This document shows, in pieces, positions 1,968 through 57,518 of a stretch of DNA of 64,000 nucleotides; within the stretch, counting starts at the first letter, position 1, and each line of letters opens with the position of its first letter. The notes under the pieces were generated by a model. That model saw only the letters and a list, made by a program, of their open reading frames with translations, searched no databases and was not told where the DNA came from. The stretch lies in contig NZ_CP034661.1 in the NCBI RefSeq assembly GCF_003971235.1, positions 4,092,001 through 4,156,000 on the forward strand, read 5' to 3'. This stretch comes from Chryseobacterium aureum. Its GTDB lineage: Bacteria; Bacteroidota; Bacteroidia; Flavobacteriales; Weeksellaceae. The position numbers and the translations under genes were made by a program.

Positions 1968-1972
1968 ATATT

Positions 1973-2061
1973 ATGAATGATAAATGATAATTGATGAATG
2001 ATTTTTTTTGCTTAAGCAAATTCTTGGCCATTGTATCAATTATCATTTATCGCTTATCAAA
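1973..2061. repeat. heptad-repeat locus B, two 28-bp arms
   Basis: Left arm 1973-2000 is four heptads of the form ATnAnTG; right arm 2034-2061 is four heptads of the form TATCnnT. The segment GATAAATGATAATTGAT at 1979-1995 is exactly complementary to 2035-2051, giving a 17-bp perfect stem across a 39-base spacer. The spacer contains a second small palindrome TTTGC-ttaa-GCAAA-like, resembling that in locus A. Confidence 0.8.
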
Positions 2062-2072
2062 TATTGTTTAGT

Positions 2073-8552: not shown

Positions 8553-8624
8553 TTGGAAGTGAGGAGTGGGAAGCAGGAAGAGTTGTTTGTGAAAAACTTC
8601 CGGCATCCAGCATCCAGCATCCAA
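8553..8624. repeat. heptad-repeat locus C, two 28-bp arms
   Basis: Left arm 8553-8580 is four G-rich heptads (TTGGAAG first, CAGGAAG last). Right arm 8597-8624 is four C-rich heptads (CTTCCGG, then CATCCAG twice, then CATCCAA). The arms are complementary at their outer and inner heptads (6 of 7 each) and weakly in the middle. Spacer 16 bases. Confidence 0.75.
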
Positions 8625-11167: not shown

Positions 11168-11174
11168 ATTTTTG

Positions 11175-11251
11175 TTAGGGTTTAGGTGGTAGATTATAGG
11201 TAGCAGGTGACTGTGTCTGGGAACTAATCCCTAATCCCTGCGGCCTGCAAC
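11175..11251. repeat. heptad-repeat locus D
   Basis: Left part 11175-11209 is five G-rich heptads (TTAGGGT, TTAGGTG and so on, ending GCAGGTG). Right arm 11224-11251 is four C-rich heptads (CTAATCC twice, CTGCGGC, CTGCAAC) ending exactly at the stop codon of the DUF3822 gene. The complement of the right arm shares the words GCAGG and GATTAGGG with locus F at 19050. Confidence 0.75.
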
Positions 11252-12481: not shown

Positions 12482-12515
12482 ATTTTTTAAGAATTGTCTG
12501 AAACCATTATTTGTG

Positions 12516-12523
12516 CAAAGGTA
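12516..12523 (-). promoter_or_regulatory. -7 box of the Smr gene
   Basis: Minus-strand TACCTTTG matches TAnnTTTG and ends 34 bases before the ATG at 12481. Confidence 0.55.
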
Positions 12524-12557
12524 AAAAGTAAAAGGTATAGAAAACAAACTCCTTTAT

Positions 12558-12599
12558 CCTCAAACTCTCCAACTCTCCAACCCTAATACTCATCAAACT
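12558..12599. repeat. possible heptad-repeat locus E
   Basis: A C-rich stretch of CTCAAAC/TCTCCAA/CTCTCCA-like words between the phosphoesterase and Smr genes. The register is mixed (period 7 and 8) and no complementary arm is clear, so this is the weakest member of the series. Confidence 0.4.
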
Positions 12600-32928: not shown

Positions 32929-32933
32929 AATAT

Positions 32934-33054
32934 AGATTTGAGATGTGAGATTTGAAGTTTAAAGTTTATGGTTCAGAGTTAAAAGTTTCTGGTTCAAAAA
33001 TTCCCGTCTCTTAGCTCTTCGTCTTTTATCTTTATTCTCTCTAATCTCTTATTT
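32934..33054. repeat. heptad-repeat locus G (nuoN/nuoM gap)
   Basis: Nine consecutive heptads at 32934-32996 (AGATTTG, AGATGTG, AGATTTG, AAGTTTA twice, TGGTTCA and so on), then seven heptads at 33006-33054 of opposite pyrimidine-rich character (GTCTCTT, AGCTCTT, CGTCTTT). The register of seven is kept without a break in each half. It makes up nearly the whole 151-base gap. Confidence 0.85.
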
Positions 33055-33079
33055 TTTTAATTTTTAAATCTTTAAATTC

Positions 33080-37880: not shown

Positions 37881-37886
37881 TTAATT

Positions 37887-37964
37887 ATAGATATTAGATG
37901 TTAGACATTAGATTTTAGACTAATCTTGTCTGTTATCTTAATTATTTAATATTCAATATTCACA
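37887..37964. repeat. heptad-repeat locus H (nuoI/nuoH gap)
   Basis: Five heptads at 37887-37921 (ATAGATA, TTAGATG, TTAGACA, TTAGATT, TTAGACT) and a degenerate partner at 37944-37964 (ATTTAAT, ATTCAAT, ATTCACA). Confidence 0.8.
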
Positions 37965-37965
37965 C

Positions 37966-37998
37966 AAACCTAACAGGTTTTTAAAACCTGTTAGGTTT
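37966..37998. repeat. perfect 16-bp inverted repeat in the nuoI/nuoH gap
   Basis: AAACCTAACAGGTTTT pairs exactly with AAAACCTGTTAGGTTT with one base between. It lies directly after heptad locus H and 8 bases before the nuoH stop region. It has no T run and so is not a normal terminator; it resembles short palindromes scattered in flavobacterial intergenic DNA. Confidence 0.75.
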
Positions 37999-38005
37999 AG
38001 ATTAT

Positions 38006-39085: not shown

Positions 39086-39236
39086 TTTGAAGATGGGAGC
39101 TGGAAGCTGGAAGTTTATCACATCGTGGCATCAACTCTTCATCACATTACCAATTTTTTTATATTTTTTTAAACAGTTAAAGTTAAAACTAAAATTTAGG
39201 TTTTTAATCTCCCAGCTTCCAGCTTCCAACTATCCT
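39086..39236. repeat. heptad-repeat locus I (nuoH/nuoG gap)
   Basis: Left arm 39086-39113 is four heptads (TTTGAAG, ATGGGAG, CTGGAAG, CTGGAAG); right arm 39209-39236 is four heptads (CTCCCAG, CTTCCAG, CTTCCAA, CTATCCT). The arms are complementary over about 18 bases (GCTGGAAGCTGGAAG core with one difference). The last heptad overlaps the nuoG stop codon by two bases. Spacer 95 bases, AT-rich. Confidence 0.85.
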
Positions 39237-40233: not shown

Positions 40234-40235
40234 AT

Positions 40236-40270
40236 TGTATGCTTTAAGCTTTATGCATTAAGCAATAGGC
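40236..40270. repeat. heptad-repeat locus J (nuoG/OMP gap)
   Basis: Five heptads of the form xxxxxGC: TGTATGC, TTTAAGC, TTTATGC, ATTAAGC, AATAGGC. It fills the 41-base gap between nuoG and the inserted gene. Confidence 0.8.
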
Positions 40271-40274
40271 TTTG

Positions 40275-42514: not shown

Positions 42515-42523
42515 TGTATATTA

Positions 42524-42565
42524 TGCTTTTAGCTGTCAGCTATTGGCTTTTGGCTTCTAACTTAT
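42524..42565. repeat. heptad-repeat locus K (nuoF/nuoE gap)
   Basis: Six heptads of the form xGCTxxx: TGCTTTT, AGCTGTC, AGCTATT, GGCTTTT, GGCTTCT, AACTTAT, unbroken. Confidence 0.8.
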
Positions 42566-42590
42566 GCTATTTTAATTTGTTAAAATTTAT

Positions 42591-43113: not shown

Positions 43114-43193
43114 AAAATGTACATTGTACAAAGTACAAAGTAATTATTAACTAATTTATATTTTCAAGTACATTGTACATCCTACATTGTACT
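43114..43193. repeat. heptad-repeat locus L (nuoE/nuoD gap)
   Basis: Left arm 43114-43141 is four heptads (AAAATGT, ACATTGT, ACAAAGT twice); right arm 43166-43193 is four heptads (AAGTACA, TTGTACA, TCCTACA, TTGTACT). The left TGTACATTGTAC and the complement of the right arm differ by one base. Spacer 24 bases. Confidence 0.85.
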
Positions 43194-44434: not shown

Positions 44435-44497
44435 AAATGCTTTAGGCTATAGGCTCTAGGCTTTAAGCTTATTGCTTGCTGCTTACTGCTTATTGCA
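44435..44497. repeat. heptad-repeat locus M (nuoD/nuoC gap)
   Basis: Nine uninterrupted heptads, eight of them ending in GCT: AAATGCT, TTAGGCT, ATAGGCT, CTAGGCT, TTAAGCT, TATTGCT, TGCTGCT, TACTGCT and then TATTGCA. This is the cleanest single-register example in the window and fills the 75-base gap. Confidence 0.9.
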
Positions 44498-45566: not shown

Positions 45567-45573
45567 TTTTAGT

Positions 45574-45660
45574 AAATATTTAAAGATTAAAATATTTAAA
45601 GATTAAAAAATAAGATCTTTAGAATCTTTAAGTTACTTAAATAAATTCAATCTTTTAATG
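45574..45660. repeat. repeat locus N (nuoB/nuoA gap) with a 16-bp tandem duplication
   Basis: AAATATTTAAAGATTA occurs twice in tandem at 45574-45589 and 45590-45605. The complement AATCTTTA recurs at 45623-45630, and degenerate heptads fill the rest. Composition is almost pure A/T. Confidence 0.75.
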
Positions 45661-45667
45661 TTAAAAT

Positions 45668-57444: not shown

Positions 57445-57518
57445 GGTCCTATAGCTCAGTTGGTTAGAGCACCTGACTCATAATCAGGTGGTCCCTGGTT
57501 CGAGCCCAGGTGGGACCA
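57445..57518 (+). tRNA. tRNA with CAU anticodon, probably tRNA-Ile2
   Basis: 74 bases from GGTCCTA to TGGGACC plus the discriminator A; all four stems close (one G-U in the acceptor). Anticodon CAT at 57479-57481 in the loop CTCATAA. The anticodon arm GACTCATAATC resembles the tRNA-Ile(k2CAU) type read after TilS modification, rather than elongator Met. CCA is not encoded. A strong terminator follows. Confidence 0.9.

Follow-up and report, generated by a model that had tools for sequence, protein, structure and literature searches.

The paired seven-base repeat arms of the Chryseobacterium aureum window (the whole stretch of 64,000 nucleotides analysed here) are probably the two stem sides of a dispersed stem-loop element, the full form of which carries a PF05635 gene in its loop. 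In the full element, this loop gene would encode the four-helix-bundle protein PF05635 (23S rRNA intervening-sequence protein, S23/IVP), whereas the majority of copies, and every copy in the window, would be bare, gene-less hairpins, some of them born by deletion of the IVP gene. The association of IVP with heptads may explain the seven-base repeats of several bacterial groups. It joins the function of IVP to the origin of heptamers, makes both questions testable, and provides a genomic context for IVP, namely the loop of a heptad stem.

Pairing of heptad arms in the window

Four loci (B, C, I and L), each located between same-strand genes according to the reading frames of the window, had been put forward in the preliminary description as carrying mutually complementary arms. 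Pairing was assessed by comparing the best ungapped inverted repeat of each locus with those of 200 dinucleotide shuffles. Locus B, a minus-strand hairpin element with GATAAAT/ATTTATC arms that separates coaD from a UPF0126-like gene (1968..2072), has a stem (1968-1995 with 2035-2062) containing 23 pairs in 28 positions, with a continuous run of 17. Locus I, also on the minus strand, displayed 23 pairs in 27 positions with a run of 13; in gene sense, its 3' arm, of the GGAAGCT type, adjoins nuoH (39086..39113), and its 5' arm adjoins nuoG (39209..39236) and has its last 2 bases inside that gene. At locus L in the nuoD/nuoE gap (minus strand), GTACAAA heptads (43114..43141) are followed by GTACATT heptads (43166..43193), giving 25 pairs in 32 positions with a longest run of 6; the left arm overlaps the first codons of nuoE by 11 bases (43114-43124). 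For these three loci none of the 200 shuffles reached an equal value. Locus C, on the plus strand in the hemW/murI gap, consists of heptads of an irregular GGAAGNN form downstream of the hemW stop (5' arm, 8553..8580) and TCCAGCA heptads (3' arm, 8597..8624), and yielded 10 pairs in 12 positions, which was equalled by 11.5% of the shuffles. Complementarity beyond chance was thus confirmed for B, I and L, and not for C. RNA folding was strong for loci B (z -5.5) and I (z -4.9) and weak for C (z -2.1) and L (z -1.2), and the continuous 58-base GCTNNNN array between nuoC and nuoD (44439..44496, minus strand) did not display any RNA fold (z 0.4).

Further minus-strand heptads are found in the nuoH-nuoI gap (ATTAGAT, 37881..38005), upstream of nuoG (GCTTTAA type, 40234..40274), in the nuoE-nuoF gap (42515..42590), which is mosaic with GC-type heptads on the nuoF side and an unrelated other side, in the nuoA-nuoB gap (45567..45667), where some alleles have degenerate heptads, and as inverted arms of the TAGGGTT/CTAATCC types at 11168..11251. 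A long minus-strand array also occupies the nuoM-nuoN gap (32929..33079), which in other species is a 19-bp gap. Across Chryseobacterium species and their kin this gap holds either a heptad array of approximately 80-165 bp or the 19-bp sequence (TAATTTGATATTTTAAGAA or one base off), and both states occur among close relatives. Searching the whole window with Rfam at gathering thresholds gave no match to any heptad locus, the sole match being a tRNA gene at 57445-57518.

Abundance, length and position of heptad arrays

The arrays are built of tandem seven-base units and thus qualify as heptameric simple sequence repeats. Their frequency was determined in 864 kb of the 5.07-Mb genome (two fetched stretches and the window), with an array defined as period 7 at no fewer than 16 of 21 matches. 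Arrays were present in 27 of 363 co-directional gaps, compared to 0.4 expected from shuffles, and in 6 of 171 other gaps (0.2 expected), while periods other than 7 averaged 2.3 in the co-directional gaps. Gene calling relied on a simple ATG-ORF rule, which makes the gap edges approximate; the gap at locus C was called too long because murI may start at TTG.

The length of the 64 arrays in this sample varied continuously from 21 to 142 bases with no step at 28, and 23 of them rounded to four heptads. The proposal that the arms comprise exactly four heptads therefore fails, and the special role suggested for a 28-bp arm as the length of a bound helix finds no support here. At 11 own-genome loci, the median distances of the arms to stop and start codons were 8 and 15 bases, respectively. 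The left arm was purine-biased on the sense strand at all 11 of these loci and weakly so among IVP elements (35 of 52), and this bias was absent from the nuo set (18 of 32).

IVP genes between inverted heptad arms

Inserts matching PF05635 (23S_rRNA_IVP) were identified in nuo gaps of LGM1 and of Epilithonimonas, where in E. xixisoli the IVP gene sits between heptads in the nuoH-nuoI gap, and likewise at locus B of the sister genome G100. PF05635 loci were collected from 5 genomes (40 matches, 30 loci fetched) and from 34 further genomes (30 loci fetched), and a gene was considered to have inverted arms when the inverted repeat score between its 200-base flanks was 12 or higher. Such repeats flanked 28 of 30 IVP genes in the first set and 24 of 30 in the second (52/60 combined). 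The control counts were 43 of 336 for genes encoding 90-200 aa, 56 of 300 for mispaired flanks and 24 of 116 for neighbouring genes. Two of the loci scored as hits (L358 and L382) are cut by contig ends and their flanks therefore mis-set; omitting them leaves 50 of 58 usable Bacteroidota loci with inverted arms and 8 without. Some of the counted loci represent the same site in the C. aureum genome and in G100 (for example L294/L298), and are therefore not all independent. The arms of the IVP elements were themselves heptads, with identities of 0.575 at lag 7 and 0.574 at lag 14, compared to 0.37 at lag 8 and approximately 0.28 otherwise. One exceptional IVP gene (L300, G119:C299:7044-7343) is bordered on either side by long direct GTGTTTTGGT-like arrays in place of inverted heptads.

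Where the neighbouring genes could be judged, 31 of 44 IVP genes lay between same-strand genes and none between divergent genes. Of those 31, 30 were co-oriented with both neighbours. The number of IVP copies also followed the presence of nuo heptads, with a mean of 6.9 in 16 genomes with such heptads and 1.7 in 18 genomes without them (p=2e-4), the exceptions being one of the 16 without an IVP hit and 11 of the 18 with some IVP.

On plasmids, tblastn returned 15 records with IVP, of which 11 were cyanobacterial. Ten of the records were analysed (9 cyanobacterial and 1 from Riemerella), and all had period-7 DNA on a flank (p7 of 16 or more), with inverted arms at 7 of the 10. For the heptamers published from Xanthomonas and Nostoc, the link to IVP was examined on these cyanobacterial plasmids. 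In two of the cyanobacterial plasmids, IVP elements with heptad arms are located between cas6 and cas4 of CRISPR operons (L339 in pANA02 of Anabaena sp. 90, 1495-1863; L342 in pPg_01 of Pseudanabaena galeata, 1501-1860), and the pANA02 operon has a type I-D cas1d annotated. The Riemerella anatipestifer record (L347, NZ_CP081938.1), called a plasmid, has lepA and a gene for iron-sulfur assembly next to its IVP element and may be a fragment of a chromosome.

Link between IVP elements and the gene-less loci

The C. aureum genome contains 13 PF05635 matches at 12 places, none of which lies inside the 64-kb window in the profile search. The IVP elements elsewhere in the genome nevertheless share their arms with loci B and I, and weakly, through one arm, with locus C. 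At locus B, the 3' arm in gene sense (1973..2000, minus strand), which faces the downstream gene, matched the own-genome IVP element L351 with a score of 21 (null maximum 13), and the 5' arm (2034..2061, minus strand) matched the same element with a score of 17 (null maximum 15). Both arms of locus I matched element L308 with a score of 17, against null maxima of 12 for the nuoH side and 11 for the nuoG side. The 3' arm of locus C also matched L308 (score 15, null maximum 10), and its 5' arm, which was present in the window genome and G100 and not in 6 other relatives, did not match beyond chance (score 13, null maximum 13). The nuoC-nuoD array is of the same type as IVP element L298 (score 25, null maximum 13), which is located between groES and groEL, as named from the flanking sequence and not by search. 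For locus L, no matching IVP element was found in the own genome.

The gap at locus B provided the most direct view of both forms. In 20 relatives, selected because the gap is longer in them, it holds an IVP-bearing allele, with IVP sequence, intact or broken, between TAATGAG heptads. A frame of at least 117 codons was retained in 10 of the 20, and among these the median dN/dS was 0.076 at a dS of approximately 1.1. The locus B allele of G086 (L131) corresponds to that of the sister species G007 (L328) minus 351 bases, which leaves a bare hairpin. In the window itself, a remnant of the IVP gene in the locus B loop appeared plausible by eye, but was rejected, as the score of 20 was identical to the null mean of 20 and no remnant was thus detectable.

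The main alternative to a unitary element is that heptad hairpins arise independently and that IVP elements insert into existing loops, so that the association is one of target. We consider this rather unlikely. It would agree with the position of the 23S rRNA intervening sequences (IVSs), which, according to the part of the Coxiella IVS paper available, sit where an extended stem-loop replaced a tetraloop in the rRNA (PMC4990558), and with the large excess of bare arrays over IVP copies in the Saprospiraceae genome G119, in which (GGTGAGA)x3, up to one mismatch, occurs at 630 places (0 in two other genomes) and IVP has 5 matches. Set against this are the families shared within one genome between the arms of IVP elements and bare hairpins elsewhere, the bare hairpin yielded by IVP gene deletion in L131 relative to L328, and the IVP copy number, which tracks heptad abundance.

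Spread of heptad families across genomes

Intergenic period-7 segments were found at 43 of 80 Bacteroidota nuo loci, at which other periods were near zero except for L040 (a masked run of N). The heptads were genome-specific, each genome having its own set: a heptad was common to two gaps in 100 of 223 pairs within a genome, compared to 668 of 6186 between genomes, and permutation of the within-genome sharing gave a mean of 27 and a maximum of 53. In gaps with two arrays, the heptads were reverse complements within one mismatch in 18 of 23 cases and direct repeats in 1 of 23. In G119, conserved palindromic cores lie between the arms, of which 17 of 26 comprise exactly four heptads. Variant heptads agreed between the arms at 31 of 46 positions, compared to 30% when permuted (maximum 58%), in a comparison where some rows have an arm in common (two elements at 90.4 kb) or combine arms from neighbouring elements.

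Allelic turnover and covariation of the arms

When the window was compared with 7 relatives, more than one discrete allele class was found in 10 of 12 heptad gaps and in 0 of 10 non-heptad gaps (one gap of intermediate score, 12482-12592, was omitted), even though the genes beside heptad gaps were more alike than those beside non-heptad gaps (93% vs 88%). The nuoD-nuoE gap (locus L) had 5 allele classes with 17 changes on a nuo tree of 34 species, and 4 of 7 nuo gaps differed between C. aureum and G100, its nearest relative examined, with nuo genes 96% alike. The intercistronic gaps of a core operon thus change between discrete hairpin alleles faster than its genes diverge. Between species, switches of heptad family usually hit both arms together, as seen in the nuoD-nuoE gap for the GTACAAT, TCAGATG, AATTATA and AAAGATA types, and some nuo gaps had mosaic, unpaired arms.

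Covariation was followed in most detail at locus B, where the 17-pair stem of the GATAAAT family was 95% paired in 33 sequences (31 distinct rows). Two-sided compensatory changes occurred at 5 pairs, compared to 1.6 after shuffling, and none of 500 shuffles was as high. Together with the family switches in both arms and the agreement of variant heptads in G119, these changes bear out the initial argument that independent slippage cannot explain the tie between arms. The preliminary description had looked to arm lengths and to covariation as the deciding observations; the lengths proved continuous, and the covariation was present.

The same compensatory changes, together with the placement of arrays in co-directional gaps and of their arms close to stop and start codons, are also compatible with intercistronic stems that selection maintains because they stabilise the mRNA or couple translation, with the heptads as a by-product. 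The locus B stem contained 14 G-U and 10 A-C cells, with the A-C cells mostly at the outer end and the inner part leaning to G-U. Across the 11 of 15 allele groups that entered the sums (p7 of 13 or more and a stem score of 8 or more), however, wobble-state changes comprised 52 G-U and 48 A-C, in addition to 16 two-sided and 117 other changes, and there is therefore no bias towards the sense RNA. Arms of the own loci even displayed more A-C than G-U (26 vs 18), whereas hairpins without heptads leaned to G-U (76 vs 45). Selection at the level of the sense RNA, which had been suggested as one origin of the hairpins, is consequently not supported overall. Many alleles are moreover unpaired or mosaic, and the association with IVP is not predicted by this explanation, which we regard as improbable.

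Changes free of RNA bias and continuous array lengths would fit an origin by mutation alone, in which seven-base polymerase slippage and intrastrand template switching make and repair the arms and homologous recombination spreads the alleles. Heptamers are reported to be over-represented in many bacteria in the Xanthomonas and Nostoc study, which also puts forward slippage as an idea (PMC4692102). This origin appears quite improbable to us in view of the genome-specific families at unlinked sites, the conserved palindromic cores in G119 and the IVP association. With a dispersed stem-loop element as the preferred explanation, slippage would subsequently alter the number of heptads and recombination would carry alleles between species.

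Relation to known repeats and intervening sequences

The full element resembles the 23S rRNA IVSs of Coxiella and Leptospira, which, as far as covered by the part of the source available, are stem-loops with terminal inverted repeats and an S23p/IVP frame in the loop (PMC4990558). A stem formed from terminal inverted repeats was found at loci B, I and L and at most of the IVP loci described above. A PF05635 frame in the loop was not seen in the window, but was present in the locus B gap of relatives, and rather than in rRNA genes the loci lie between protein genes (nuo operon, coaD). Both types of element are patchy with apparently horizontal spread. The same paper (PMC4990558) also gives a length of 28 bp for the Coxiella IVS stem and states that no function is known for S23 proteins and that it is unclear how IVSs arose. 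In contrast to the IVSs, the heptad elements are present in many copies, have heptad stems and are mostly gene-less.

The GGGAATC repeats of Xanthomonas and the GGGGAYT repeats of Nostoc are, from the text of that study at hand, similar to the window arrays in their period of 7, their intergenic location and their frequent occurrence in co-directional gaps (PMC4692102). They likewise include inverted pairs (70 and 75 cases) and consist mostly of four units, as reported for the Xanthomonas arrays, but form one G-rich heptad type, compared to many families here. The available part of this study describes no general link of heptamers to mobile elements, and S23, four-helix and intervening sequence are absent from it. 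The TAACTGA repeats of Beggiatoaceae, cyanobacteria and some Bacteroidetes are also intergenic heptamers near start codons with a patchy distribution across phyla, but differ in being direct repeats of one sequence with one inverted case, according to the sections at our disposal, in which neither S23 nor intervening sequences appear (PMC4679880). As far as these two partial texts extend, heptameric repeats are explained by the slippage idea or by an unknown regulator only (PMC4692102, PMC4679880). Searches of the open-licence literature revealed no paper that connects heptads with IVP.

The IVP protein and candidate movers

A profile of 17 IVPs matched the S23 structures 2gsc (Xanthomonas campestris XCC0516, E 2.9e-33) and 2rld (E 4.3e-29), both of which contain five chains; the Xanthomonas S23 protein is described as a homopentamer in the part of the Coxiella IVS paper available (PMC4990558). 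The predicted structure of an own-genome IVP (pLDDT 94) gave Z scores of 16.7-17.5 to S23 structures (17.5 to 2rld), and its PF05635 profile match and predicted four-helix fold assign it to the S23 family.

In the mechanism we favour, the whole element would spread together and IVP would bind the paired stem, possibly as a ring, as suggested by its pentameric relatives. IVP would then act in trans on the gene-less copies, probably on transcripts, since IVP genes are nearly always co-oriented with the surrounding genes. That the element is mobile and IVP its mover is inferred from this co-orientation and from the genome-specific families at unlinked sites. A more far-reaching possibility, which we hold only tentatively, is that IVP serves as mobility protein for a class of stem-loops with heptad stems that spans phyla, its pentameric ring reading approximately four paired heptads at once and copying or moving gene-less hairpins in trans without a classical transposase. 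The cyanobacterial and Xanthomonas heptamers and the 23S rRNA IVSs might then all be members of this class. No target-site duplication, defined element ends or fresh insertion were noticed in the gap comparisons with relatives.

The IVP model also resembled Avd of diversity-generating retroelements (PDB 4dwl, 8ub7; TM 0.69-0.75), with Z scores of 13.5-14.3 that are barely above those of unrelated helical bundles (12.8). Diversity-generating retroelements pair with a reverse transcriptase, and this fold raised the idea of a reverse transcriptase as an obligate partner of IVP. RVT_1 was detected in 6 of 11 IVP-bearing genomes and was not found in the other 5 (G100, G118, G119, G139 and G151, some of which are drafts), and an obligate partner is therefore not supported. 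The single RVT_1 match of the window genome is at G000:C1:294221-294646, in an open frame of 539 codons.

REP/REPIN elements are palindromes scattered through intergenic DNA and probably mobilised in trans by RAYT Y1 transposases. The heptad elements are similar to these as dispersed intergenic palindromes, but the Y1 genes encountered here adjoin palindromes of their own. Y1 (PF01797) had 11 matches in 4 genomes, and at the 8 of 11 whose flanks were examined no heptads were present (p7 of 12 or less in all), which led to rejection of a Y1/RAYT transposase as the mover. Two Y1 genes of the window genome (L277 at G000:824761 and L281 at G000:984201) have the same predicted protein, and both are flanked by palindromes of the CAATACCTCGAGGCTTGCCTCGGGG type, which represent a separate palindrome system in the genome.
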